Assembly (NCBI RefSeq): GCF_000313135.1
Contig: NW_004457431.1
Location: 1-64,000, forward strand
Length of the DNA: 64,000 nt
Direction: 5' to 3'
From: Acanthamoeba castellanii str. Neff
Taxonomy: Eukaryota; Discosea; Longamoebia; Acanthamoebidae
Shown here: positions 2,052 to 50,797 of the stretch, piece by piece
Position numbering within the stretch: position 1 is the stretch's first letter
How the letters are laid out: every line of letters begins with the position of its first letter
Position numbers and translations under genes: made by a program
Notes under the pieces: model-generated
Seen by the model: the letters and a program-made list of their open reading frames with translations, nothing else
Database searches by the model: none
What the model was told of the DNA's origin: nothing

Positions 2052-5000
2052 ATGAAGCTAATCCTCTGCCTGCTGACACTGTCCCTCATCGGTACCTCAC
2101 TTTTTCCTAAGAAAGCCTGCTTTCAACATATATAGACGACTCCCAACTCATGTATGTACATATATATATTACCCGTTGATCGCAGGCGTGATGGGCCAGC
2201 AGTACTTTGGTGTGAACGAGCCGGCCCTTGGCTTTTCGGCCGACAAGATTCCCGGCCAGCTGTGGTTCGACTTCCCGCTCATTCCGAACGAGTCCATCGA
2301 CTACTTCGCCGCCAAGGGCATGAACACCATCCGCGTGGGCCTCATCTGGGAGCGAGCCCAGCCCACCCTCTTCGGCGCCCTTGACTCCACCTACATCCAA
2401 TACCTGGTACTCCTCCACCGTTTTATTTGATGTATCTGATTGTATCTTAATTTCGGCTATTGCATGTTCATTGTTTCCGCAACATACTAAAAAAATGCAA
2501 ACAAAAACAAACAGACGGACAGTGTAAACTACGTGACCAACACGAAGGGCATGTACTGTCTGCTGGACCTGCACAACTACCACCGCTATCGCGACCAGGT
2601 GATCGGCTCGACCGCCGTGCCCTACACGGCGCTCACCGACGTGTGGCAGCGCCTGGCCACGCTCTACAAGGACAACCCGCGCATGATATGGGGCACCATG
2701 AACGAGCCCTACGGTATCACCTACCTCGCCGCCAAGCTCGGCGCCAACGCCGCCATCAAGGGCATCCGTGACGCCGGCGCCACTGTACGTCCCAACTATC
2801 CCTGTGCGGTGGTGAGTGTGCGTGTGGTCGCACACCATCAGGCTGACCACACAACATCAAAACAGCAACTGATCACGATCAGCGGCAATGACTACTCGAG
2901 CGTGTCCGGGTGGGTGGGCACCAACAGCGTGTGGATGGGTCCCTCCAACATCACCGATCCGCTCAACAACTGGTATGGATAGAGTGAAGATGAGATATAG
3001 AAGTTCTCATATCATTTTACTGATCAAGATGCCAATCAGGATGTACGAGATGCATCAGTACTTTGACAACCAGGGCGGCAGCACCGTCTGCGTGCCCACC
3101 TGGGACGTCGAGGGCAACTTTGCCGCTACCACCACCTGGGCTCGTAATAATGGAGTGTACGTTCTCCTCGTTCTGCTCTGAATCAGACTTCTGTTCCTCA
3201 CCCATGTGTGCTTCTCATCACGCAGTAAGATCTTCCTGGGCGAGTTCGGCCTCAACGACTCAGACCAGTGCATCGCCCTTCTCAACCGCATCATGACATT
3301 CCTTAAGGTGCCTCTTGAAATATTGTATTCACATTCTTGGAATTCCTGCTGATATACAGCAAACACTTGCGACCAGGCCAACAAAGATGTGTGGAACGGG
3401 TGGACCTGGTGGTCGGCCGGCCCGTGGTGGCCCGAGGACTACGTGAACCTCATCGAACCCATGACCGACGGCACTGACCGCAACCGCATCATGGGCATCC
3501 TCCAGGGCTACTTCCCCGCGGCGACCACGCCGAGCCCGACCAGCACCCGCACGCCGACGCCGTCGACCAGCCGCAGCCCGAGCCGCACGCCGACGCCGTC
3601 GACCACCCGCAGCCCGAGCCGTACGCCGACGCCGTCGACCACCCGCAGCCCGAGCCGTACGCCGACTCCCTCGACCAGCCGCGTGCCGAGCAGCGCCACG
3701 CCGTCAGTCAGCCGTGCTGCGAGCCCGTCGGCCTCCCGCGCTCCCGTCGTGACGGGCCGTCCGCAGTACTTTGGAGTGAACGAGGCCGCTTTGGGCCTCA
3801 CGCCCGACGTCCTGCCCGGCCAAGCGTGGGTCAACTACCCGCTCATCAGCGAGGCCTCGCTGGACTACTTCGCGTCCAAGCGCATGAACACCATCCGCGT
3901 GCCCATCACCTGGGAACGCCTTCAGCCCACCCTCAACGGCGCCCTCGACACCACCTACCTCGGCTACCTCGTACGTGTCATCGTTGTGCGTGTGCGTGTG
4001 CGGTGGTGCATGTGCGTGTGCGGTGGTGCATGTGCGTTTGCTTGTGCGGTGGTTGTGCGGTAGCCTGATGATGTGCTATATTTGTTGCAGACGTCGAGTG
4101 TGAACTACATCACGAACACGAAGGGCATGTACTGCGTGATCGACATCCACAACTACCACCGCTATCGGGGCCAGCTGCTCGGCTCGGCGGCCGTGCCGTA
4201 CAACACCATCACCAACCTGTGGTACCGCCTGGCCGGCCTCTTCAAGACCAACCCTCGCGTAATCTTCGGCACCATGAACCAGCCCTACGGCGTGTCCTAC
4301 CTGGACGCCCTGCTGGGCGCCAACGCCGCCATCGCCGGCGTCCGCGGTGCCGGCGCCACTGTACACCTCCCCTCTCTTTACTCAGCACATCAGAACACTT
4401 GCTAACCGCACTCGCACATGACAGCAACCCGTCACGATCAGTGGCAGCGACTACTCGGCGGTGAGCTCGTGGGTGGGCACCAACAGTCTGTGGCTGGGTC
4501 CGGGCAACATCACCGACCCGCTCAACAACTTCATGTACGCCAAGCCGCATCATTACCAACTCGCCGCCTACATGAAGTTTAACCTTTCACCTACATCCAG
4601 GTACGAGATGCACCAGTTCTTCGACGGCCAGGGCGGCACCACCGTGTGCCAGCCGGACATCAACGTCGACGCCCTGTTCGGCGGCGTGACCCAATGGGCG
4701 CGCTCGCTCGGCGTGTACGCCCCCTCACACCACCACATCATTGTACATAGTGTTAGTTGTCTCATGCAACTGTGTGCAGTAAGGTGTTCTTGGGTTCGTT
4801 CGGCATCAACGACTCGGATCAATGCCTGCCGCTGCTCAACCGGCTCATGACTTACATCAATGTACGTGGACGACGATAGTCGCCTTGTGCGTGTAGCCCA
4901 GATCTTGATACTCACTCCTTTACCTTCATGTGCGACAGGCCAACAAGGACGTGTGGAACGGCTGGACCTGGTGGGCGGCTGGTCCCTGGTGGGGCAACTA

Positions 5001-5076
5001 CATCTACCTCCTCGAACCCAACTCCGATGGGACCGACCCCAACCGCCTCATGGCCAACCTCCAGAACTACTTCTGA
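2052..5076 (+). CDS. secreted bimodular GH5 endoglucanase-like protein; second module lacks both catalytic Glu
   Basis: Twelve exons (2052-2091, 2186-2406, 2515-2784, 2866-2972, 3040-3156, 3226-3307, 3377-3970, 4091-4360, 4425-4534, 4601-4714, 4780-4861, 4939-5076) give 714 residues. A signal peptide ([13 protein letters not shown]) leads into two GH5 (beta/alpha)8 modules joined by a Ser/Thr/Pro-rich linker. The two modules share intron positions, so the gene arose by internal duplication. Module 1 keeps the acid/base Glu151 in TMNEPYG and the nucleophile Glu258 in LGEFG. In module 2 these become Gln541 (TMNQPYG) and Ser648 (LGSFG). Substrate-side aromatics such as WNGWTWW are kept in both. 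Module 1 probably cleaves beta-1,4-glucan, from bacterial or plant food or the amoeba's own cyst wall. Module 2 is probably a non-catalytic glucan-binding pseudo-domain. The exact substrate is inferred. Confidence 0.92.
3528..3690 (+). repeat. 36-bp tandem repeat encoding the Pro/Ser/Thr linker between GH5 modules
   Basis: About four head-to-tail units of 36 bp encode the repeating peptide [12 protein letters not shown]. The repeat is coding and in frame, so gain or loss of units only changes linker length. Such linkers are usually O-glycosylated in secreted cellulases. Confidence 0.8.
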
Positions 5077-5139
5077 TGACCTTCTTTCGGCATGAACAAC
5101 ATTGAATAACAATTTTGAATATGTTGAGTATCCAGGTTG

Positions 5140-5480
5140 GCATTCCTCCGTTGTGTTTTTTTCGTGGTGGTGCTGGTGTGTGGGAAGAGCTGGGCGAGGA
5201 GGACCTCGCTGAGCACGTGTGCCAGCGTTGCCATGTGCGCCATCTAGTTGTACCTGAGGCCTTGAGCTCAGTCACAGCACATCTGGCCAAGGCCAAGTCA
5301 ATCTTGTTGCCCACCAGCACCACATACCTTCCTGAGCGGGTGGCATTATACCTTTTAATTGAGACACATGGCCCAAGGTGTGCATGCTATCAATCAGCAC
5401 CATGTATCCGTCAGACTCACCAACATCCTCTACATTCCAGTTGCATAAGAACCTCGTCTCACCCAACTGCACTTTGCTGG
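5140..5480 (-). pseudogene. second relic of an F-box/GTPase family gene
   Basis: Minus-strand remnants are in family order: VQLGETRF (degenerate switch II region), GYMVLIDS (beta strand after switch II), VLVGNKIDLA (NKxD guanine-specificity motif), then the tail block MAHMATLAHVLSEVLLAQLF. The SAK exon is missing and the frames do not join. It lies directly downstream of the truncated copy A and in the same orientation, as expected for a decayed tandem duplicate. Confidence 0.7.
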
Positions 5481-5827
5481 GTTAAGGCTCTCTTGGTCTC
5501 CTGCACCAAGACTCTATAGTGACAATCAGTGTGCAATAACCCTGGCCTGCATTCCATCCACACACCAAGCATTTCAAAGTTAAGGCCACTTGTGCAAGAC
5601 CACCCCCAGCAGCATAGCCAATGGCATCTACTGCCCAACCCAGCAGATGATCACCAACCTGCTGACAAAGGCACAGTGATCATCAACTGACCAACTCCCA
5701 GCAACCAAAAACAGACAGAAACACACAAACACACAAACACATCTTCTGTCACAAATACATCTCTCTTCACACAGCCACCACCGCCTGCAACAGTTTGACG
5801 TCTCTGTTGAGCTGGAGAGTAAAATCA
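5481..5827. other. intergenic spacer
   Basis: Lies between the relic and the stop codon of copy A. A/C-rich, with CACAAACA-type simple sequence near 5710-5750. No gene seen. Confidence 0.4.
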
Positions 5828-7590
5828 CTACTGGAGGGCACATCTTTGTGTCTGCTGGGCGCTGGCTCCTGCGGTGGTGCTGGTGGCTGGGTCTGGAAAG
5901 AGCTGGGCGAGGAGGGCCTCGCTGGGCACGTGTGCCGGAGTGGCCATGTGCGCCACGCGCTGCCAGCCGCGCATGAGGCAATCCACAAGGAGGTCGAACG
6001 CCTCGGCCACGCCCTCGCCCGTCTTGGCCGAGCACTCGCAGAACAACACACCCAACTCCTCCGCCTTCTGCCTGCCATTGCGCATACCATGTGCCCAAAC
6101 CACAAGCAAGTTCACTTCTTAGTGAAGGAAATCAGAACAAACAAGCAAATAAATGACAAGAGAACTTTCAGGACTTTACCTGGCCTCGAGCTCGGTCACG
6201 GCGCGCTTCGTCGAGGCCAGGTCGGTCTTGTTGCCCACCAGTATCGCATGTGTATCATCCGGCGCGTACCTGCGGCGGTGGCCATGCATGGCGATATGAG
6301 CCTGAGGATATGGATCAAGGTGTCATTGTACCTGGCTAGTTCTGCCATCCACATCGTGACATTGTCGAAGCTCGGCCTGTCGGCGATGTCGTAGACCACC
6401 ACTGCACCGTGCGCCTGGCGGAAGTACATCGGCGGCGTCGCTCTGAATCGATCGGATCCGCCTGTGTCCCACAATTGCACCTGGACATTCCAACGTGTAA
6501 GACAACATGCCATCAACTCGCGCCATTCCACGTCCATTTAAATGGAGCATCGCTACCCACCTGGATATGAAGGTCATGCCACTTCACACAGCGGCACTCT
6601 AATGTCGCGCCGATGGTGGGGGTATGATCAGTATAACGGTCACCAACATAACGGCGCAGGAATGCCGTTTTTCCTACCCCGCTGTTGTGTGGCGTGTGGC
6701 GTGCGACGTGCGTCAGAGATGTTGTCCAGGAGGAGGTGGAAAAGCAACGTAGGCCGTACCACTCGCCCAGCATGATCACTCTAGCCGAGTAGTCGTACTG
6801 GCTATCCGCTCCCATGGCGGGTGGGAGAGAAGGCGCTCTGTCGCGTCTCCCCTGTCTGTGAACACCAACAGACATGGGTGTGAGGTAAGCGCGTGAGTGT
6901 CGGTTGGTTGATTGGCGTACTACTTTCTGCAACATGTTAGAACGTGCCTGAACTGTGAGACGGCGGCGCGCAGCCACCGCATGTAGGCGCCCTTCCATCC
7001 GCCCCTGATTCGTGTTGTGTTTCGACATGTCAACGGTCATGTCGTGTGGTGTGCGAAAAAGAAAGAGCCAACCAACCTGATGGCGGGGTGGTCGGCCCAC
7101 GATGGGTGGCCAAGCGGCCTCCACAGGACGTCGTCCCGGCTCACCGCCGCCAACGCTCGGCTTGCCTGTTTTCTTTAGTTTGGCCATACGTTTGGTATCA
7201 CCTCCCGTTGTCAATGGTGCGTCGAGTACCAAGGAGATGGAGCAGAGGTCGCGCGCGTTGGCCACGAACGACAGCATGTGCACCACCACTTCCTGTCAAG
7301 CAGCAGCCAGTGTTGTCAATATTTGCACTTTTTGGCTCTTCGACATGGCAATCAAGGAGTGGGGCACGCACCGGAGGCAGACTCCAGAGACCCGCCTGTT
7401 GTTCGTCCCCCGTCCTGGCCATCAAACATTAACACCCACTTCATAGTGGAATTCAAAAAAATGGGGGGGTGCACCAGCCAAGGTGTAAGTGGGGTGGGCT
7501 ATTGCCCCAAAGCTGCCTTACACGCTGCACCCCAGCAGCCACCGCCCTCAGCAAAGTCGAAGGGGGCCTTCTTCCTCCTGCTCCATGCAG
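5828..7590 (-). pseudogene. family copy A: F-box/GTPase with CaaX, ankyrin exons mostly lost
   Basis: From the 5' side (high coordinates), the first-exon block ending in the LGWC region is degraded at about 7480-7590. Ankyrin exons 2-4 are missing, and only the last few codons of the final ankyrin exon (SLPP) remain near 7390-7425. The F-box exons (VVVHMLSFVANARDLC, then the SRDD/LW block) and all GTPase motifs follow: P-loop GECGVGKT, switch I TPTIG, G3 WDTGGSD, NKTD near 6215-6235, SAKTG, and a C-terminal CALQ CaaX box ending at 5828. The GTPase half is open across normal introns, so a shortened F-box/GTPase protein might still be made, but no clear start codon is visible. Called a pseudogene with reservation. 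Confidence 0.65.
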
Positions 7591-7774
7591 CCCTTCGCTT
7601 TCTTTTTTGGCTCTCTTTTTTAATTTACTATTTTGATAATTAAACTGCGCATTTTCATTGGCCGGGTGAAATGGGTTGGGGTGGGGTCCTGCGCCGCAAC
7701 AGACTCTCCGAACAAGAGTCTTAACTACGATTGTCGCTCTCACTACTGTATTACAAGATCTTTGTTGTTAGTTA
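7591..7774. other. short spacer between copy A and the glycoside hydrolase gene
   Basis: A/T-rich around 7615-7640. It should hold the 3' end of the leftward gene at 7775-9405. No gene seen. Confidence 0.35.
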
Positions 7775-9405
7775 CTACAAAGACATGTGCCACCATGCGC
7801 TTGACACGAGGCTCGCTCCGCCGGACGTGTCTGTCTCTTCCACCTCGAGCACCAACACGTGGTCAGGCACCATGAGCGAGATGCGGCTCTCGTGGGTGAA
7901 GGTCGACCGGCCGTCGACCGAGTAGGCGCCGCTCAGGCCCGGTCCGTCGTGGGGCGCATACACGCGCACGGTGTAGCGGTCCGGCGGCAGGCTCAGCACG
8001 GTGGGCATGCGCGGGGGGTAGATCTGTCGGTGCGGCTGAGTCTTGGTGTCTTCATCAGAGATCTCGTGCCACAGAAGAAGAAGGAGCAGGCCATCGGGCT
8101 TCTGGAGCAGGAGGTGGTGCACGTAGTCGGTCCGGTCCCAGCTGCCGACGGCGCTGACGTTGAGGCTGAAGTCGAGCGAGCCCAGCTCGTAGGTAGGGGG
8201 CCGCAGCTGACCGGCAGAGGGCGCCCACGCGCTGCGGAGGAGGGTCATCATGTTCTTCAGGGCCGTGTAGCTGGGCTTGGCCGAGTAGTTGGAGTAGAGG
8301 AGGCCGAAGTTGGACTCGTGGGCGGTCGGTTGGTCGTGCTGGTCCACCAGCTCGTAGACGCAGGTGCGTCGGATGCCCAGGCGGAAGTACTCGGTGAAGA
8401 TGCGGTTGGTGTAGAGGCCTTGGGCGCGGATCGAGGTGCCCATGCCGCCCTGCTCGGTCGAGTAGCCGGTCTCCGTGGCGAACCAGGGCCGATTGGGGTA
8501 GTAGGCCTTGGCCTGATTCCAGTTGGTGGGGAACTGGTCCAAGTTGGTCGATGGCTGATCGATGGAGGGGGATAAGAAGGGTAATCGACTGACATTCTGT
8601 ACATAAATGCAGAAGTATGTGGAATATGGTACCTGGTTGCTGTTGTAGAAGTAGCGGGTGATGTTGCCATAGGACTGGAAGGTATCTGTGAGCCAGTTGC
8701 CGTTGAAGGGGTAGGGGTGCATGTCACCAAAGTCGACCCACTGGCTGCAGCAGTTGGCCGGCAGGACGGCCCAGATCGCCAGCGGCGCGCCGATGATCCA
8801 CCTGTCCTTGAAGAAGGAGTCCTGGCGCAGGAGCGTGTACATGTCCCTCATGTACTCCATCGTCCCGTTAGGGAAGCCCTTGCCATTGTAGGTCTGGCGT
8901 TGATGTCAGGTTAGCCAATGCCTGACAATGCAACCCCAAGAATGTGTGGAATGTCATCATTTGGACAACGTACGATGTTCTTCTGAGGCCACGTGCCATC
9001 GGGCTCGTTAATGCCCATGATGGCGTCGACCAGCAGTCCGTCGTTGATGGCCGTTTTGATCTTTTGGACCACCTGGCGGGTGCTGTTGATGTTGCTGTCC
9101 GTGTTCCACGCCAGTTCGAAGACGCCGTAGTTCATCTTGATGCCCTTGGCCGCGAGCTGGAGCGCCACGCCGGGCGAGTCGTCGCGCACGTTGTGGATGC
9201 CGGCGTCGGCCAGCAGCTGGATCAGTTGGGTCTGGTTCGTCGTGTAGGCGGTGCCAGCAAAGCGGAAGTGGGTGTTGACGCAGACGCTGTCGACAAACAG
9301 GTCGGCGGACTGCGCCTTCTGTACGAGCGCCCCGCAGCGTGGGGAGATGAAGAAGACGAAGCACAACGCAGCGACAAGGCAGCCCCTCTTCGAGAGCTGC
9401 GGCAT
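7775..9405 (-). CDS. secreted clan-A-like glycoside hydrolase
   Basis: Exon 1 is 9405-8974; exon 2 starts at 8893 and runs to the stop at 7775. A 78-bp segment (8632-8555) has intron-like ends but stays in frame, so it may be a retained or absent intron. The N-terminal signal peptide has the core LVAALCFVFFI. The body has the order expected of a (beta/alpha)8 hydrolase: HNVRDDSPG early, GINEPDG (candidate acid/base Glu), FGDMHPYPF, ATETGYST (candidate nucleophile Glu), RRTCVYELVDQ and SYTALKNMM. A beta-rich C-terminal part follows. It resembles bacterial-type putative cellulases/calcium-binding hydrolases; the family number and substrate cannot be fixed by eye. It neighbours the GH5 gene, suggesting a shared role in polysaccharide digestion or cyst-wall turnover. 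Confidence 0.8.
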
Positions 9406-33823: not shown

Positions 33824-35599
33824 CTAGCAGATCTGTTTGAGAAGGTAGTCGAACTGCCCCGGCCGTTTGAGGATGTTCTTGAGGTTGAGCGTGCCACGCC
33901 CAGCACCGACGTCACCGCTGGGGTTGAAGCAGAGCCGGCCGAGCAGGTCCTTCACGCAGTGGGCGTTCGTGAGGCGCCTGGGGCGTTTCTTGGACTTGAT
34001 CTCGAGGGAGCGGTCGTAGGCCAGCAACCACGCGATGACGCCCGCGATGAAGGGCGCCGCCATGGACGTGCCTGAGGCGTATTGGTACCAGCACTCAGGC
34101 TTCGCGCCGGCGATGCCGGGCAGCGTGGTCTGCCCAGACGGAGGCGAAGTCGGCATCGGTATGATCCAGGTCGAGAGTATGTCCTCGCCTGGCCCAGCGG
34201 CGTCGATGTGGGCGCCACCGATCGAGGTGAATGCAGAAGCGCGACCGTGAGCGTTGACGCTGCCGACGCGGATGACGCCGGGGATGGTGGCCGGGAAGCG
34301 GATGTTGAACTGGTGGTTGCTTCCCGCGTTGCCCGCGGCGCAGACCACGATGATGCCCGAATTGATGGCTTTCTGAATCGCGTTGTGGAGACCCTCGTGG
34401 TACTTGAAGCCGCCGAGGGACATGGAGATGAGGTCCACGCCCTGCGCGATGGCCCACTCGACACCTCGAGCAACGTCCTCCTGCTTGACGTTTTGATGCT
34501 GGTCGGCAACCTTGGCCACGTAGAGCTGCACTCCGCACGCGACGCCCGAGCGTGCGCCGGCGATGATGCCCGCGCAGTGCGTACCATGGCCGATCAGGTC
34601 GAGGCACGATATCTCTGAGTCCACAAAGATTGCCGTCGCTGCTATGGCCCCTGCGAGATCCGGGTGTGCCCAGTTCACCCCCGAGTCGAGAATTCCGATC
34701 TTGATCTGCTTGAGCGCGGCCAACCGCGCAGCGTTCGACGCGAAGAGCTTCGTGCAGGCCAGCTCCCGCAGTCGCTCCGCTTCTGGCTTGTGAGCGGTGT
34801 AGAGCCTGGTTGGTTCCCCGAGGCTGGAGGGTGAATAGCGACGTCAGCCGGCCGGAGGCCTTCTTGGCGGCGTAGGATCTACTTACGCGGCAACCCCCGC
34901 GACAGGGCAGTGAACGGATCGGTGTTGGTCTCGTCGATGTAGACAATCTTCACCTGCGGGTACGAGCTCCGAAACGACTTGAGTTCGTCAGGCCCCTCGA
35001 TGTGCACCTGCTCGAGCTTGGGCATGGGCGGCAGGTCCTTTGGCAAGACTGTCGCACGCGATCGATCAAGGTGTTATAGTATAGAGAGAGAGAGAGAACA
35101 AGAAGGTCTGTTTGATAGATGGTACCGTCGGTGATGAGCACGCGCAAGGCGTCCAAGGACACGTGGGGCACGTGCCGCAGGAAGACGTAGGGCATGGCCA
35201 GCACCTCGACGTGCGGGAAAACAGGGTCGGGCAACACGGCGCGCACGTACTCTACGTTTGACGCCGGCCACGCTCTCCGAGTTTGACAAGCGGGGCTCAA
35301 CAAGACCTTGACTGCTCTTGGAGACCAAAGGCGCAGCATCCGAATCTTCTCCAGATTTGAGGGCGTGGGTGGTTGCGGGTACCACTCGGTGTCGCTGAGC
35401 TTCCAATCCAGCAAGTCGAGGTGTGGTGCGAGGTGTAGTCCCCTTTAGGTCTGTGCCGCATAATCACGCGCCATTCGCCGAGGGTAAGACTGGTGATGGC
35501 ATTGGGCGCATTGTCGGCGTGCCGCGGGCTCGAGCGGTTCGTCTTCTCGTTGTCGAGATGCCCAACTTCCTCCTCGCCTTCGTCTTGTCTCCTCTTCAT
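33824..35599 (-). CDS. subtilisin-like serine protease (S8) with LRR-like N-terminal part
   Basis: The last exon (34823-33824) encodes the whole catalytic domain: Asp in GILDSGVNW, His in GHGTHCAG, oxyanion Asn in CAAGNAG and Ser in ASGTSMAAP, so it should be active. A middle exon (35048-34895) reads LPKDLPPMPKLEQVHIEG, joined by a GG|GTTG donor to the protease exon. The first exon region (35599 to about 35128) starts MKRRQDEGEEE. It then changes frame near 35440, where LHLAPHLDLLDWKLSD and the block ending SLDALRVLITDG look like leucine-rich repeats. The change is either a one-base error or a real lesion. No signal peptide is seen, suggesting a cytosolic or nuclear protease. The total is about 530 residues. 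Confidence 0.8.
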
Positions 35600-40642: not shown

Positions 40643-43600
40643 ATGGAAGCGGCATCGTCGATCAGGGCGTCGATGGTGATGATGGCGGTGTGGGTGTGCC
40701 TGGTCCTGCTTCTGGGCACGGGCCGAGCAGCCTCGCAGAGCGTTGAATCGGTCGACCCAGGCTTGGACGCTCCCTACGCCTCCGACTACAGCCTGTCCGC
40801 CCCCAACTACACGCGCCTTGCTGGCGGTACCCCCTCCTTTGCGGCCTGGATCGCCTTTCTTTGTGGACCGCTGCTGATTCACCATCTTGCAAAAGGCTCG
40901 CGCAACAACCTCGCCAACACAGCGTGGAACGCAGGATCGACCGCTTACATTTCGAGTACGTCGCGATTAATCAAATCAATCTTACGAACCAATCTCTTGC
41001 AACACAGCATTAATCCTCATCTTTGATTTCACCCCCCATCATTCAATTAACAATCCGATTGATCGTCTGCAGCGCTGGTCCCCCACGCATATGATGATGG
41101 GATCAGCGCCCCAGCCAGGTACTCCTGCCCCCCCGGGGTCTCCTTGTCCTTCTTTCACTGACGACTTGTCTGTGGTGCAGGCCAGACGGCCCCAACGCGC
41201 GCCTGGTCAGCAACAAGCTCTTCTCGCGGCTCGCCAGTACGGACCTTGCCCCCCCCCGCCGCATTACAGCTAACTCTAACACCTCCTCTCCTTCTCTTGA
41301 ACAGAGTCCAACAAGCTGCTCACCAACGATCTGCAAACGATCTGGGGCCAGCTCATCGTGCTCGACGTCTGCAACACCCTGCGAGGTACCTCCACCCACC
41401 CTTCTTTTCTGGCCCAGGCCTGGCCCAACTGCCTTGTATCAACGTGACGCGTGTTGTGTCCGAACAAAGGGCCGAATTTGCTTGGTGCGCAGTACACCGC
41501 GTTGAGGGGAGGCCGCAACTACTCCATAGAACACTTTGGCGTCCCCATTCCCACCGGTACAGAACCTTCGCATCGGGGGCACATCGCTCGAGTACCAACA
41601 CACCGGCTGACGCTTCTGTTGATGTGGTGCGGCGTGATGTGGTCTGTGCCAGACGACGTGTTTCTGAACCCGTATGCCGAGGAAGACCTGGAGTGCGCGG
41701 TGGAGCGCTCGGCGCCCTACCCGCCCACCATGGACGTCGGGCAAGTCCGCCAGCAGATGATGGACATCACCGGCTGGATCGACGCCGGCTGGCTCTACGG
41801 GTACACACAGTAGTGTCGTTGGTCGTTGGTCGTTGGTCGTGTCGTGTTGTGTGACTCACACACGCGGCGATGACCACAGCACTTCTGGCAAGAACGGTGC
41901 TGGGCCATTCTCCTGGGCGCAGATCCGCGAAGACAGCGGCGTATCGTGCAAGCTGAACAACGCCAAGTGGATGGCGCCCTCTCTGGTGCGTCCAAACTTA
42001 TGCAACAATTGGTCGTTGTCGGCTTTCTCTGTCTGCCGAGCAGACGCGCCTGTGAGTGTGCGGTGTATCTGTCGCTGCTGACACACACACATCACACCCA
42101 CAACACCGCACAGTTCGGTCTGCATTTCACGCCCGATTCGGGAACGACGCCCATCTGGAAGATGAGAGGTGACCTGCGTACCAACAAAACGCCCGATCTC
42201 ATTTCACTTACCGAGGTTGGTTCATCCCTCTTCTCCACTCTGTGCGTGCGCGCGCGACGGTGTATGTTGCGGTGATGTGCCGTGTGCCCTTGCGTGCGCA
42301 ATGAAACACCAACCTTGGCGAGGGGCCAAAACAAAAGGTGTTTGGTCTCGAGCACAACCGCCTGTGCGACGAATTCGCCGCGGCCCACCCCGAATGGGAT
42401 CAGGAACGGCTCTTCCACGAATCTCGCAAATGGTACCCCCGCCTCTCCACCACGTTTCGCAATCTTCTCCACCAACCACCACCCACCACCCACCACCCAC
42501 CACCCACCACCCACCATCGTCGTCGTCGTCTACTCAACGACAATGCGGACACTCTTGGAAAAAACAGGGTCATCGCCTACCTGCAGAAGATTTCCACTCG
42601 CGAATGGCTGGCTGCGGAGATGGGCTCCCCCCTCAACTCCACCCACTACAGCTTGTGTATAGGCCTACAGATCCTACCACCCCTCTACTGGTTGTTTCCT
42701 CACCCCCTTCACATACTCACCAAACCTCACAGACGGCTACGACGCCACGGTCGACCCGAGGATAGAGAATTTCTTCTGCTCCGTCGCCTTCCGCTATGGA
42801 CACTCACAGGTGTCGTGCGTGTGTCGTGTGTGTGTGCGTGTATGTGTGTCGTGTCGTGTGATTAACCAAGTTGTATTTGCACACGTGCAGGTGAATTCCC
42901 ACATTCCTCTGCTCAACGATGACTACCAGGAAAGCGAACTGGGCAATGTCCTCGTGCGGGACTGGTATTTGTACGTCATTGCCCCATCCCATGCCTTGCC
43001 AATGTTGAATGTGAATGTGGGAGAGAGCTAATGTCAGAGCATTTTCACTGAATTCAATCAGCGCCACCAAGAAGATGATGGACCTGGACATGGCCCCGTC
43101 CCTCCTGCGCGGCCTTACGGTCACCCGCCAGGGCCTTGTCGACACCTCATTTGTCGATGATCTGTACGTTACTTTCCACTTAGCGTTGTGCACAATTCAG
43201 ATTAGATAGACTTATCATGTAGATATATGATAGATATATGATAGATATCTGTGAAATCTAATAGTAATGTTGTGCACACGTGTCCACAGCCGCAACTACA
43301 TGTTCTCGTCGGTGGCGTTCACCCAGTTCCAACAACAGGAAGCGTGCCCGGACTTGGCCGCAACCAACATTCAACGCGGCCGGTACGCCAACGCGCTCCT
43401 CTCATAGTGCTGCCCGCGGGGCGCCCTGGAGACACTCACTCGCACACACCCTCGCCGCGGCGCAGCGATCACGGCATGCCAAACTACAACGCGGCGCGTG
43501 AGGCGGTCGGCCTGGATCCCGTCGACGCCTGGAGCGATCTCATTTCCGACGCCGAACTCCTCGTACGCCCCCGCCTCCCCGCCCCGCCGTTCTATCGAAA

Positions 43601-45224
43601 AGAAAGTTCTCTACCTACCCACATACGAGACCCTGGAGAGGCTCACAAGCATTGTATCGCTCGAATTTCCTCTCTCTCACACTTTACACAGGCCCTCGTC
43701 GAGTCGCTCTACCCGGATGGCCCGGACTCGGCCGACCCGTATGTGGGCGGCCTCCTCGAAGGTATATCCCCAGGCCGCACCTCTCCTAACGCCCCTTTGG
43801 TTGCTGTTGTTGTCGTTGTCGTCGTGGTCGTCGTTGTTGTTCTCATTGCGGCATGTTCCACAGAGCACGTCCCCGGAGCGGCTGTTGGAGCTCTCTTCCG
43901 AGCAGTCGTCATGAACCAGGTACGCGTGCGTGTCGCGCCATTTGTTGGTGTTGGGGAGGTGTTGTGTCGTGTTGCGTGTCGTGTCGTGTCGTGTGTGCTA
44001 AGACGCACATTGCCCCAATGTGTTCAGTTCGAACGACTGCGCAACGGCGATCGTTTCTGGTACGAACGAAAGGGCATGTTCTCTGCCAACGAATTGACTC
44101 AGATCTACCAAACGGTGCGCTGTCCTTGCCCCCCACCACCACATTCCACAACGCATTCCACAACACAAGCCCTGTCTTTGCGCGCATTCCTGTTCTCACC
44201 GGGAATCGGCGATGTGGGTCGTGTGGCTGATCATTTAAACCACACCGTGCGGTGGACGACCAGACTCTCATGGACATCGTCAACCGCAACATGAACGTCA
44301 GCAAGTGGGGTACCGTGCCCGGCGACACCTTCTTCCTCCGGCAGCGCTACCTCGCCAACATCGGTACGTTGATCATGCGTGTGCGTGTGCGTGTGCGGTG
44401 GTGCGTGTGCGGTGGTGCGTGTGCGGTGGTGCGTGTGCGTGTGCCGAAGCTCAAATCGCCGGTGCGGTCTCGATGCAGGAGGCGACCAGTTCTTCTCGGG
44501 ACTGGGCGACTACGATCACTTTGTGGAGCTGTCCCCGGCCTACCGCCTGTCATGGACGCCCAGAGTGGCCAGCAACGAAATCGACCTCATGATCCAGGTA
44601 CCATTCATTTTTCATCGCACACGCACGCACGCGCACGCACACGCACACGCACGCACTGATCGTGTTCTCTGTGCAGTGCCGTACCAGCGGATGGGTCGGT
44701 GTGGGTTTCAGCCCGGACAACGGCACCATGAAGAATGGCGACATCGTCGTGTGCTACCGGTCGGAGGATTATGGCTGGCAATTCCTTGATGCCTACGCCC
44801 TCGACGTCGGTGTGCCCACGGCCGACTCCACTTTGCCCGGCGGCACCAGCGACTTGAGCCAAACCTCCGGCACCTACGCCGATGGTGTCGTTACCTGCAA
44901 GTTTACCCGGTGCGTAAGTGTGCGGTGATGTGTGCGGTGTGTGTGCGGTGTGTGTGCGCGCACGCGCGCGCCCGTGCAAAGCTTGTGGTCTGAACGTCTG
45001 TGATTGCAGAAAGATCAATTCAGGAGACCAGTGGGACAAGGTGATCGGCGAGGGCTTCGTGAAGGTCATCTTTGCGTTCCACCCGACGTCCAACGAGCTC
45101 ATCTACCACGGACCCACGCGTTCCTCCGCCGCGCGCCTCAACCTCCTCAACACCTGCATCGGCCCCAGCTGCCTGGTCACCACCTCCTCCAGCGACACCG
45201 GTACACTCCCGCCACACACTCCCG

Positions 45225-45306
<82 letters not shown>

Positions 45307-48071
45307 CCGCACACGCACACGCACACGCACACACACATTGCTGATGAGTTGTTTTGTTGTAGCGGCGGTGGTGGGCGGCGTGGTGGGCGGCGTGGGCGGC
45401 CTGCTGCTGCTTCTGCTGTTGGTGCTGGTGGCCATCTTCTTCCTGCTGCTGGCCCGCCGGAAGAAGAAGGAGGAGAAGCTGCGCCTGGCCGAGCAGTGGT
45501 CCGACGAGGAGACCGACACGGAGATGGACGAATTCTCGGGCTCGGAGTCGAGCATGCTCCATTCGTCGGCGGCGGGCATGGCCATCCGCCGGCTCTCCAT
45601 CACCGACCTCGAGACCTCCAACATCTCCTTCGAACCCCAGGTCAGTCGACTAGCCTGCGCCCCCACTATCGCACGCGTACGTCACAGTCTTGTCTGACAA
45701 CCGCACACGACACGACACGACACACGCGCACCGCACACACAACATCGCACTACACGACACGACACGCGACACGACACACGATACAGGTGCTGATGTTCGG
45801 TCTGGGCAACAACGACAAGTGTCCGGTGGACAAGGAGGTGAGCGATGAGTTTGTGATCACCAACCACGGACCGACGCGCAAGTTCACCTTCTTCGTGCCC
45901 GCCGAGAACGAGAAGTTCACCTGCCGCCTCTACCCCGGTTCCGGCGTCATCAAATCGGTACAGCACCAAACCGCACACACTACCGCACACACCACACACC
46001 GCACGCGCCACCGCACGACACACGCTGAAGCGACCAATGTTGATGTGCCACGCAGGGCAAGAGTGTGACGATCAACGTGCATGTGGTGCTGCTGATGACG
46101 ACGGACATCGAGCGCAAGATCCGATTCGATGTGGAGGGCCTCGGCTCCTACCTCATCTCCATCAAGCTCGTCGGCGAACTCTCCACCAAGCTCGACCCCG
46201 ACGACATCGACATGCTCCAGCCCCCCATCGGTTCGCACACACCGCACACGACACGACACGACACGACACGACACGACCAACGACACGACACGACCAACGA
46301 CACGACCAACGACCAACGACACGACCAACGACATGTGGCTGAAATTCTTCCGAAACGAAACCATCATAGGCCAGGGCTCGTTCGGCACGGTGTTCAAGGC
46401 CAACTACCGCGGACAGGAGGTGGCGGCCAAGCTGCTCAACTCCCAAATGGACAAGCGCCTCATCGCCGAGTTCCACCGGTGCGCCGCCGCCGCCACCTTA
46501 ATCAAAAGCGTGCCACACGTCGCCAGCCGCCTTAACTACTACTACGCCACCTTAACTCATGACTGGGAGACCACGACAGGGAGGTGGACATGATGACGCG
46601 GCTGCGGTGCCCGTGGGTGATCAACTTTGTCGGGGCGTCGTTCGTGCCCAACAAGATCTGCCTCGTGACCGAGCTCTGCACGCTGGGCTCGGTGGGCGAC
46701 GTCATCTTCTCGCAGCGCAACTTCAACTACCTCCTCGTCCTCAAGTTCGCCATGGACATGGCCAAGGCCATCTCCTTCCTCCACACGTACGTCTCCAACG
46801 CTGTGTGGCAGCCTCAGCTCAACACTGACACGTCATCGCGTGTCGTGCGTCGTGTGTCGTGTGTGTCGTGTGTGTCATGTGTGTCATGTGTGTCGTGTGT
46901 CGTAGGAACCGAGTGTTGCACAGGGACATTAAGCCGGACAATTTCCTGATTGTGGCGCTCTCTTCCAAGGCCCCCGTCTCGTGCAAGATCGCCGACTTTG
47001 GTACTTCCAGGTACGCACACACGACACTCGATGACGACACGACACGACACGACACGCACGGCTTACGATGTGTGCGGTGGTGCAGGTCGATCCAGCAGGC
47101 GCAGGAGTTCTTCAACCACACGGCCGCGCTGGGCACGCCCATCTACATGGCCCCCGAGATCCTGGACCACAAGCCCTACTCGGCCAAGGTCGACGTCTAC
47201 TCCTTTGCCATCGTCCTCTGGGTTCTCTACACCAGGCACGCCCACCCCACTCACCGCACACACCCAATCGCACACGCACACACTCTACCGCACACACCGC
47301 ACACGCGCGACCGCACACACCGCACACGCGCTCATGTGGGCGGTTGGTGTGCAGGAGGGAGCCGTACACGGAGATGAAGCGGGCGTGGGACATCCCGAAG
47401 GCGGTGCTCAAGGGCTCCCGGCCGCCCATCCCCGACCACTGTCCGCGGCCCTTCGCCGACCTCATCATCCAATGCTGGGCTCAGGACGCCGCCGACAGGT
47501 TCGCTTCACCGCACACGCACACACGACACGACACACGCACACATTGTAACACGACACGACACGACACGCGCAGGCCGGAGATGGCGGATGTGGTGACGCA
47601 GCTGGAGAAGCTGTTCGAGGAGGAGAAGGCGCTGAAGGGCGACCGCGACGAGGCGGGCGCGGGCAAGAAGGGCGCCGGCGCCAAGAAGCCGTCGGACCGG
47701 GCGCAGACGGCGCGCGGGCATGACGACGACGCGGCCGACGACTCGGACGAGCCCGCGGCCGAGGAGATCCGCACCGGCACCTGGGCCGGCGGCCGCAAGG
47801 GCATCGCCCTCGACGACTCCCCCGCCGTACGCCCGCCTGCGCGTGTCGCCTCGCGTGTCGTGTCGTGTCGTGTGCGGTGCTGAGGAATGTGAGAAATGTG
47901 TGTGAGTTGCAGGAGAGGGAGGAGAGTAGTTCGAGCGGGAGCAGCTCGAGCGATGAGGGGGAGTACGAGGAGGGGAGCGTCAAGGGCAAGGTGCAGAAGA
48001 AGCTGGCCTCGTCGATCAAGGGCAAGGGCAAGGAGAAGAAGGACAAGCGCAACTACACCGGCGGCTTCTAG
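40643..48071 (+). CDS. receptor kinase with haem-peroxidase and DOMON ectodomain
   Basis: I can join 33 exons without a stop into 1,369 residues. N-terminal signal peptide (VWVCLVLLLGTGRA). Animal-type haem peroxidase domain, about residues 60-560: SRNNLANTAWNAGS, WGQLIVLDVCN, DITGWIDAGWLYG, GLEHNRLCDE, AFRYGHSQ (proximal His), IQRGRDHGMPNYN, RLRNGDRFWYE. DOMON domain about 615-760 (SGWVGVGFSPDNGTM). One transmembrane helix about 787-817, then KKKEEK. Cytosolic MSP/ASH-like beta-sandwich about 880-990 (KCPVDKEVSDEFVITNHG). Kinase about 990-1260 with GQGSFGTVFKA, EVAAKLL, HRDIKPDN, DFGTSR and MAPEIL, all catalytic residues present; then a Ser/Asp/Glu and Lys-rich tail. The distal His is replaced by Leu. 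Key joins: TM exon 45363-45640, kinase entry 46230 to 46370. A type I receptor sensing haem, redox state or a ligand is inferred. Confidence 0.9.
45229..45304 (+). repeat. (CA)n microsatellite in an intron of the receptor kinase gene
   Basis: About 38 uninterrupted dinucleotide units within the intron 45201-45362, immediately before the exon that encodes the transmembrane helix. Confidence 0.97.
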
Positions 48072-48220: not shown

Positions 48221-50797
48221 TTATTGGCTGTTTTCGGGGACGCGCTCCATGTCCTGCGTCAGGAACGACCCGTGGTTCATCAGCGCACCGATCCAATCTT
48301 GCTTGTCTGCACACCGCACACGCACACACCGCACACACCGCACACACCGCACACACCGCACACACCGCACACACCGCACGACACACGCCCGCCGCACACG
48401 CAGAGTTTAGGAGGCGAGATGGTGAGAGGGGGGAGAGGGGGGGGCGTACCCTCTTCAGAGTCGGTGTAGAGGTACCACTCGCGGGCCGGGGTGGAGATGG
48501 TGAAGCTGGTCCGGGCCGCCGGGTCTTCGGTGACGGCGGAGAACTTGAGGTCGATCTTGCCCTTGGCCTTGGTGTCCTGCGTGGTGGTGTAGTAGTAGAG
48601 GGTCGAGTCCTTGAGCACGAACCACCGCGTGCGCCACGACATGGGCCCGGTCTGGCCCTTCTTCTGCATCCACCCCGTCTTGGTCGGCTTCGACACGCTC
48701 GCCACCGACTCGCTCTGCCACCACCGCCACCAGATGAGGGGGCGGGTTGGAGGGGGCGGGAGGGGGCGGGAGGGGCTGGAGGGGGCGGGCGGGGCTGGAG
48801 GGGCGTACTCGGCACAGCATTTGGGAGCGTTTGACCCAGGTGACGTTGAAGGTGGCCGGAAGCTCCTGCAGCCACGGCTCGCCGTCGATCTTACACGGCA
48901 GCGGCGGCGAGTCGGGCTTGTACGTAATCTCCACCGACTTGCCCTGCGCTATCCTGCATATCGCACACGCCCACCGCACACACCGCATGAACCGCACACG
49001 CCCACCGCACGCGCCGAACCGATGGTGAGAAATGGCGGCGTGTTGGGACGCGAGGGAGCGCGGACGTACCGCACGCCGGTGGCGAGGCCGGCGCCGATTT
49101 GGCTGAAATGGAACACGCTCCGGATGCCGATCAGCTCCAACTGCCCGTCGTTCATCGACACCACATCGAATCGCTGTGTGTCGTGTCGTGTCGTGTCGTG
49201 TCGTGTCGTGTCGTGTCGTGTCGTGTCGTGTCGTGTCGTGTCGTGTCGTGTCGTGCGGCGAATGTCAGAAAAAGGAGAAGACCGTGAGAGGGGGTGGGGT
49301 GCTGCGTACGTCCTCCTTGGTGGTGCCCCACAGGTTGAGGCCTCCGGCGTAGGAGGGCAGGTTGAGCAGAATGAGGCCCTCGATCTCCGGCAACGGCACC
49401 GGGATCCCGTCCACCTGCGCTCACCACGTCAGCCCGCGTTGAAGGGGGCTGAAGGGGGCGGGCGGGGGCGGGTGGGGGCTGGAGGGGGCGGGCGTACGGA
49501 GAGCTCGAGGATTTTGTCGAGGGTGGCGGAGGCGAAGAAGGGGGCGCTGATGGCGTCGGTGAGCATGGCCTTGGCGCCGAGGCCGGCGTACCACAGCTTG
49601 TTGATGCCCCGCGTGGCGAACAGGAACGGCGACCCCTCGCGCTTCTTGTGGAAGTCCAGCGCCACACGCGCGTCCGCGAACCCTGCGTGCGTGCGCACAC
49701 GCCCACCGCACACGGGTGAGCCGATGGGCGCGCACGGTATGTGCGGCGAGCGTGTGCAGTGGGCGTGTGCGGTGGGCGTGTGTTACCGAGGGAGAGGTAG
49801 TTGTTCATGCAGTGCTCCTGGGTCTCGGTGGTATCGCCGCTCTGCGGGTCCACCGTGTTGATCTGCACCTGCCATCTGTACTCCCGCAATCAGCGCGTGC
49901 GGTGTGCGCGTGTCGTGTCGTNNNNNNNNNNNNNNNNNNNNNCGTGTCGTGTCGTGCGGCGTGTGCGGTGGAGGAGTACCGGTCGAGGTCGTTGATCTTG
50001 CTCTGGCGCACCTCCTGCAGGATGGGAGGCACCTTCTCGCCGGCGTAGCCGCCGCCCCACCCCAGCACGCGCGCTGCCCAATCCCGCACCACACGACACG
50101 ACACGACACGACACGACACGACACGACACGACACGACACGACCAACGACACGACACGACCAACGACAGGCGCGTGTAAGAACAACCGCACACGACCGACC
50201 GCACACACGGTGAGGTACCGATGTCGTTGCCGGTGCCGAGCGGCAGGACGGCGACGGGCGGGTTGGGATCGAGTCCCATCTTGTCCATCGTTTCCTGCGT
50301 CACCAGTACTCTCAGCTTTGCAGCTCTCCGTGTGCGTGTGCGTGTGCGTGTGCGGTGGTGCGCGTGTGGCGTGTGCGGTGCGTGTGTGCGTACAAGGATC
50401 CATTTGCCGGTGCCGTCGCCGCCGCACGCCAATATCTTGAGGTTGGGCAGCTCCTTGAACTTTTCCAGCCTATTATTATTAAAATGATTAATAAATAACA
50501 TTTAAATAAAGTACATTTTCCCAAATATAGATAAAATAGAAATAATATAATAATAAAAACAAATAGATAATAAAAAGGGGCGTACGCGGGGCGGGGGCCT
50601 TGGTTGTCCTCGAGGAGGTCGATGACGTGGTCGTGGGGCAGGAGGGCGCGGAACTTGGGGAGCAGGGCCGCCCCCTGCCGCCCGCCGCTCTTGCTGTTCA
50701 CGAAGACCAGCAGCGGATCCTCATGATGCTGCTCGCCACTTTGCTGTGCGTCATCTTCACCGGACTTGCCCTTGCTCGACTTGCTCGACTTGAACAT
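48221..50797 (-). CDS. diacylglycerol kinase with C-terminal PH domain
   Basis: Multi-exon minus-strand gene, start at 50797, stop at 48221. The DGK catalytic part has [14 protein letters not shown], the ATP-binding [14 protein letters not shown] and [12 protein letters not shown]. The accessory domain has [40 protein letters not shown] and [14 protein letters not shown] domain closes the protein ([47 protein letters not shown]). The usual second Gly of GGDGTVGW is Lys here. The enzyme would phosphorylate diacylglycerol to phosphatidate at membranes, with the PH domain guiding localisation. DGKs without C1 domains but with PH are uncommon. Introns carry pentamer repeats and an assembly gap. 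It is tail-to-tail with the receptor kinase gene (149 bp apart). Confidence 0.9.
49177..49254 (+). repeat. (GTGTC)n pentamer repeat in a DGK intron
   Basis: About fifteen near-perfect pentamer units written GTGTC on the plus strand; the same pentamer recurs in many introns between 43 and 56 kb. Confidence 0.95.
49922..49942. other. assembly gap (21 N)
   Basis: Undetermined bases inside a GTGTC repeat tract in a DGK intron; the true repeat length is unknown. Confidence 0.99.
50089..50168 (+). repeat. (ACACG)n pentamer repeat in a DGK intron
   Basis: Reverse-complement orientation of the same pentamer as at 49177-49254, with CCAACG interruptions near 50140-50165. Confidence 0.93.

Follow-up and report, generated by a model that had tools for sequence, protein, structure and literature searches.

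A candidate haem-sensing receptor kinase in Acanthamoeba castellanii with a degenerate peroxidase ectodomain

Peroxidase-like and DOMON modules have been treated as parts borne by reductases in sections of a ferric-reductase study (PMC3591440). For Acanthamoeba, peroxidase activity appears as an enriched term among vesicle proteins in a passage that does not name the proteins (PMC11237502), and the main text of the genome paper does not contain the words 'peroxidase' or 'DOMON' (PMC4053784). No description of a peroxidase–kinase architecture was found in the open-access literature searched, which left most subscription papers uncovered. Here we analysed a gene on the plus strand of a 64,000-nucleotide stretch of Acanthamoeba castellanii strain Neff DNA (contig NW_004457431.1, positions 1 to 64,000; hereafter the window). 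On balance, this gene probably encodes a receptor kinase whose ectodomain holds haem, senses rather than catalyses, and switches the cytosolic kinase. In it, the animal-type peroxidase fold is joined to a protein kinase, apparently as an enzyme that has turned sensor.

Gene structure and homologues of the peroxidase–kinase fusion

The genome (38.4 Mb, 250 contigs) was searched for paralogues, revealing four peroxidase-DOMON-kinase genes: the window gene and the loci L009 (minus strand), L010 (minus strand, 62578–68838) and L011 (plus strand, 69463–76278), all three on contig C134, with L010 and L011 arranged head-to-head. Homologues with the same domain order were P0001 from Neff, P0002 and P0003 from JGI (P0003 being partial at both ends) and P0004 from Stereomyxa, which is placed in Amoebozoa. 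P0001 (1,346 residues) was reproduced exactly from locus L011, as was the 646-residue Neff protein P0121 from the window, so that the genome is that of Neff or matches it in full at these loci. P0004, labelled MMETSP0439, starts within the peroxidase and continues through the DOMON, the transmembrane helix and the kinase, so that the same order was found in a second amoebozoan; we take its species to be S. ramosa and MMETSP to be a transcriptome project. The fusion is therefore not unique to the window gene, being present in four copies here, in Stereomyxa and in two JGI proteins. Because the paralogues and the Stereomyxa transcriptome protein carry the same fusion, we read the window gene as one gene, predicted to encode a receptor kinase that crosses the membrane once, in agreement with an earlier sequence-only reading of this DNA. 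An assembly artefact was rejected on the strength of the four genes and the transcriptome protein from another amoebozoan.

The exon model of the window gene was assembled manually, using open frames, splice sites and known peroxidase and kinase motifs, and preceded the homologue search; it was not blind, since the exon count and two joins of the sequence-only reading were known beforehand. The model contains 33 exons with 4,110 coding nucleotides and zero internal stops. Thirty-one introns are GT-AG and one is GC-AG, and 20 of the 32 donors start with GTAC. In guided spliced alignment the NCBI paralogue P0001 recovered 29 of these exons, P0002 recovered 26 (of 35 that it predicted) and P0004, which is partial, recovered 17 (it predicted 22). 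The continuous 1,369-residue frame proposed from the sequence was borne out by the hand model. The parts of the gene are as follows:

40643–48071 (+): whole gene, 33 exons, 1,369-residue protein; exon model, 29 of 33 exons with guide P0001
40643–40826 (+): exon 1, encoding a hydrophobic N-terminus that is likely a signal peptide; mean hydropathy 2.19 in the peak from residue 7
40896–40955 (+): exon 2, least certain; guide P0002 only
40817–44305 (+): animal haem peroxidase domain, residues 59–586; Pfam PF03098, E=1.2e-110
41361–41363 (+): distal-histidine position, codon CTC (Leu135); sequence and alignment columns
42801–42803 (+): proximal haem histidine, kept, codon CAC (His375); sequence and alignment columns
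44538–45082 (+): DOMON, residues 626–747; Pfam PF03351, E=1.3e-22
44728–44730 (+): Met663, candidate DOMON haem ligand; 7/7 kinase-fused proteins, 9/9 aligned DOMONs
45107–45109 (+): His756, candidate second DOMON haem ligand; 7/7 kinase-fused proteins, 9/9 aligned DOMONs
45201–45362 (+): intron separating DOMON from transmembrane helix and containing a CA microsatellite; absent in L010 and L011, present in L009
45365–45457 (+): transmembrane helix, then ARRKKKEEK (positive side in); hydropathy peak 3.34 at residue 799
45623–46202 (+): immunoglobulin-like (Ig-like) beta-sandwich, residues about 874–985; PF22544 at 7e-4, below cut-off; strands in the P0004 model
46224–47604 (+): TKL-type kinase domain, residues 993–1243; Pfam, with GQGSFGTV, VAAK, HRDIKPDN, DFG and APE
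46231–46369 (+): intron at the glycine-rich loop; position and phase shared by L009, L010 and L011; bridged in P0002, P0003 and P0004
47236–47354 (+): GC-AG intron; absent in L009, L010 and L011

Two joins that the sequence-only reading had singled out for checking, 45200/45363 and 46230/46370, were given by all three guides. At the first, a single exon of L010, and likewise of L011, carries the DOMON end, the transmembrane helix and the juxtamembrane part, and L009 has the intron in the same place and phase; at the second, the three paralogues share the intron, and P0002, P0003 and P0004 run across it. The join 44363/44479 was given by guides P0001 and P0004, and not by P0002. At 44364 the models of L009, L010 and L011 agree with the window gene in the position and phase of the intron. 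All three models used P0001 as guide, the protein that is the public model of L011, and the 5' end of the L009 model is unreliable. Exon 2 is the least certain exon of the gene, because it was recovered with guide P0002 only; it is also skipped in the public model P0121. Thirteen of the 32 introns are missing in L010 or L011, ten of them in both, and one of the thirteen (47827–47912) sits in the divergent tail and has no evidential value. As a side observation, the HRD motif of the kinase is short of its His-Arg in the public model P0001, whereas the genome encodes both residues in frame at L011.

Domain searches of the spliced protein found An_peroxidase (371 bits against a cut-off of 25), DOMON and a PK_Tyr_Ser-Thr kinase match (E 7e-53), and hydropathy gave a single transmembrane helix between ectodomain and kinase, near residues 799–817. 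The peak at residue 799 ranked first and that at residue 7 second, followed by a third (1.58) inside the kinase. The proposed order of signal peptide, peroxidase, DOMON, transmembrane helix, sandwich and kinase was thereby recovered, the signal peptide being a likely one and the sandwich match weak (HYDIN/CFA65-type at 874–973, under its Pfam cut-off). No EF hands, ferric reductase or NADPH domains were found in the Pfam table of the window protein. The kinase catalytic motifs were intact in 5/5 family members checked, and HRDIKPDN suggests a Ser/Thr kinase. The predicted structure of P0121 (mean predicted local distance difference test, pLDDT, 71.4; 22 sequences) matched haem peroxidases, best the TDX16 peroxidase 8s6c and Dictyostelium PoxA 6erc, and also myeloperoxidase. 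That of P0004 (mean pLDDT 66.9, predicted template modelling score 0.44) had CTR1 and Raf kinases as top Foldseek matches.

The head-to-head pair differs along its length. Synonymous divergence between L010 and L011 was 0.51 in the peroxidase and 0.59 in the tail, against 0.02–0.07 over the DOMON-to-kinase stretch. Exons from the last peroxidase part to the kinase were 95–100% alike, a near-identical stretch that takes in the extracellular DOMON, and the introns between them ranged from 56/80 to 104/105 aligned bases alike. One reading, which these data do not prove, is that partial gene conversion acted on the pair while the peroxidase diverged; simple conversion is not secure because intron similarity is mixed.

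The peroxidase active site and the DOMON

Seven kinase-fused proteins were compared at the active site (the window protein, L009, L010, L011, P0002, P0003 and P0004), with residues numbered as in myeloperoxidase. Asp94 and Glu242 are the residues that ester-link haem in the mammalian enzymes. Where 8s6c reads WGQFLDHD, the window protein reads WGQLIVLD. Five of the fused proteins, four from this genome and P0002, span the distal-histidine site; all five lack the histidine, with L, T, L, L and A as replacements. The Asp94 position was V or I in 5/5 (Val134 in the window protein) and the Glu242 position K in 6/6 (Lys281). The proximal histidine was kept in 6/7 (His375), as was Arg333 in 6/7, and the Asn421 position was kept in 7/7 (Asn464); among the fused proteins covering each site, Gln91 (5/5), Asp96 (5/5) and Arg239 (6/6) were kept. 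Sequencing error was rejected as the source of the histidine loss, which occurs in four genomic genes and P0002 with three different residues.

The ectodomain search returned 115 proteins (P0122–P0236), of which 11 with two peroxidase motifs were set aside. Among the remaining 104, the distal histidine was present in 101 and the proximal histidine in all; of the three without the distal residue, P0174 and P0190 look misaligned and P0214 has Asn. Among the 116 comparators of the first search, in whose alignment P0011 and P0013 look misaligned at this site, 59 had the distal histidine, and most of the others were DUOX, mostly without the proximal histidine too. The ratio of nonsynonymous to synonymous divergence (dN/dS, Nei-Gojobori) for the peroxidase was 0.355, 0.343 and 0.273 in the three pairs among the window gene, L010 and L011, with dS about 1 in two of the three. 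The peroxidase is therefore under purifying selection, though without its catalytic histidine. A further An_peroxidase lies elsewhere in the genome as one open frame of 703 residues (C207:1293773–1294999), with a 288-residue stretch 21% identical to the window protein.

In the DOMON, the Met of TMKN (Met663) and the His of YHGPT (His756) were invariant across the nine aligned DOMONs. The plant protein HYP1 offers a parallel: comparison of its models with cellobiose dehydrogenase led to the proposal that M90 and H174 ligate b-haem, in a passage of PMC10784544. By this likeness, the DOMON of the window protein may be a b-type cytochrome. A PDB search with the single window DOMON returned zero matches. 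A weak further DOMON match lies outside the peroxidase genes (L019 on contig C49, about 4700–5280).

The ectodomain as a proposed sensor, and the alternatives

Judged from its residues, the ectodomain is most likely a haem-binding pseudo-peroxidase sensor. A sensor fits better than an enzyme because the distal histidine is missing in the five covering fusions and both ester-link residues are replaced. The ectodomain would keep its haem, and without distal acid–base catalysis the haem pocket would report ligand or redox state, not peroxide turnover. The DOMON might carry a b-type haem ligated by Met and His, perhaps trading electrons with the peroxidase haem; electron transfer and sugar binding are both conceivable roles for it. 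Receptor packing would then respond to a change of ligand or redox state at the haem pocket, and this would set off trans-phosphorylation by the cytosolic kinase, either on the cell surface or inside the phagosome. Tentatively, we propose a more specific form of this sensor: an extracellular haem that senses a small ligand such as NO, O2 or peroxide, read jointly with a cytochrome-type DOMON and duplicated in the amoeba, with the peroxidase diverging and the DOMON-to-kinase part near-constant in the youngest pair.

Several observations weigh against a haem-holding, non-catalytic ectodomain. P0004 has T at Arg333 and N at the proximal histidine; its first residues fall there, and its sequence is probably cut at this region. 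Loss of the distal and retention of the proximal histidine is not exclusive to the fusions, being seen also in P0009, P0040, P0063 and P0105. The L010/L011 kinase has a dN/dS of 0.54 (dS 0.07), above the peroxidase value. The assignment of Met663 and His756 as ligands comes by analogy from plant HYP1, in the same passage of PMC10784544, and not from a structure. A PDB search with a DOMON profile gave three rows, of which only dopamine beta-hydroxylase fell below E 0.1, and no DOMON match was present among the 50 Foldseek rows for P0004, all kinases, a result silent on the DOMON. Finally, a peroxidase domain with its proximal histidine may still have weak peroxidase chemistry.

The main rival is a haem-free scaffold for ligand binding, adhesion or dimerisation, as may hold in DUOX. 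Most DUOX among the 116 comparators lack both histidines, as does Drosophila Duox (PMC4654585), and the distal side is degenerate here too; the Asn aligned at the proximal histidine of P0004 would suit a scaffold as well. Against this, nearly all the fused proteins keep the proximal histidine and Arg333, all of them keep Asn421, and the peroxidase dN/dS is about 0.3, so that we regard a haem-free ectodomain as doubtful. Less probable again is an active peroxidase receptor, in which a product of peroxide turnover or an oxidised state drives the kinase. The domain is full-length, and the window protein keeps the proximal His, Asn and Arg as well as the distal Gln and Arg, but the distal histidine has been lost throughout with three replacements and the Asp94 and Glu242 positions are altered. 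An active peroxidase was rejected as first choice on the absence of the distal histidine in 5/5 fusions against its presence in 101/104 comparators. The sequence-only reading had coupled haem peroxidase chemistry to phosphorylation; the fusion to a kinase stood, whereas the case for peroxidase catalysis was weakened.

Public annotation shows a short Neff 'peroxidase' at the locus (P0121, 646 residues), and peroxidase counts made by that label may mislead. All 646 residues of P0121 are encoded in the window. The model keeps 18 hand-model exons unchanged, omits exon 2 and uses a donor at 44367, 4 nt downstream of the exon 20 donor; this shifts it out of frame, and it terminates within the intron that follows. 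Two separate genes, P0121 and a downstream kinase, would account for an NCBI/UniRef entry that ends after the peroxidase and for the failure of guide P0002 to reproduce the join 44363/44479, but are highly improbable and were rejected in view of these model faults, the shared intron at 44364 in the P0001-guided paralogue models, the fusions in the paralogues and Stereomyxa, and the lack of any separate Neff kinase near-identical to the second half among 120 of 516 matches listed.

Elsewhere in the window, a Subtilase (Peptidase_S8) reading frame was observed at 33827–34843 (minus strand) and a PH-domain reading frame at 48280–48948 (minus strand), the latter convergent with the receptor kinase gene.

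Comparison with modular relatives and known systems

The peroxidase-DOMON unit occurs with other membrane partners. It is joined to PF03188, which we take to be cytochrome b561, in P0009, P0020, P0022, P0135, P0136, P0139 and P0150, to further families in P0012, presumably cytochrome b5 and FAD/NAD, and to a class C G-protein-coupled receptor (GPCR) domain (7tm_3) in P0007 from JGI. A FastTree phylogeny built from 38 chosen sequences put the six kinase-fused peroxidases in one clade (0.893) with P0007 adjoining (0.985), and the placement of DUOX was poorly supported (0.491). The transmembrane-Ig-kinase half also has partners of its own. P0244, with a laminin-G-like ectodomain, aligns over 79% of this half, and the reading frames of a likely receptor kinase gene on contig C48 (L018, about 3379–8700) include a transmembrane-Ig-TKL half 50–54% like that of the window family in the longest matches. 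In front of the C48 kinase half lie reading frames that match PBP_like_2 (solute-binding-protein-like) twice and an epidermal growth factor-like domain once, an arrangement that, as far as the sequences suggest, fits a receptor family swapping sensors.

DUOX resembles the window protein in joining a degenerate peroxidase ectodomain through the membrane to an effector, and differs in carrying EF-hand, ferric-reductase and NADPH parts where the window protein has a kinase and a DOMON; the window protein keeps the proximal histidine, whereas most DUOX rows lack both histidines, the proximal one persisting in P0063 and P0105. The peroxidase-DOMON-PF03188 proteins P0135, P0136, P0139 and P0150 share the peroxidase-DOMON ectodomain and the same large tree group, and differ in their b561 membrane domain and in having the distal histidine, which is absent in P0009 of the same type. 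P0007, on the nearest branch to the kinase-fused clade, likewise has Lys at the Glu242 position; its output is of the class C GPCR type, and it is a fragment without the distal region. The TKL receptor kinases P0244 and the C48 gene have the same transmembrane-Ig-kinase half under other ectodomains. Dictyostelium PoxA (6erc) and the TDX16 peroxidase (8s6c) share the peroxidase domain fold, and differ in that their solved chains lack a kinase and, for 8s6c, in the distal motif given above. With a peroxidase-DOMON unit set on a kinase, a GPCR-type domain and b561, these proteins allow a direct look at how a haem unit outside the cell came to feed into signalling.

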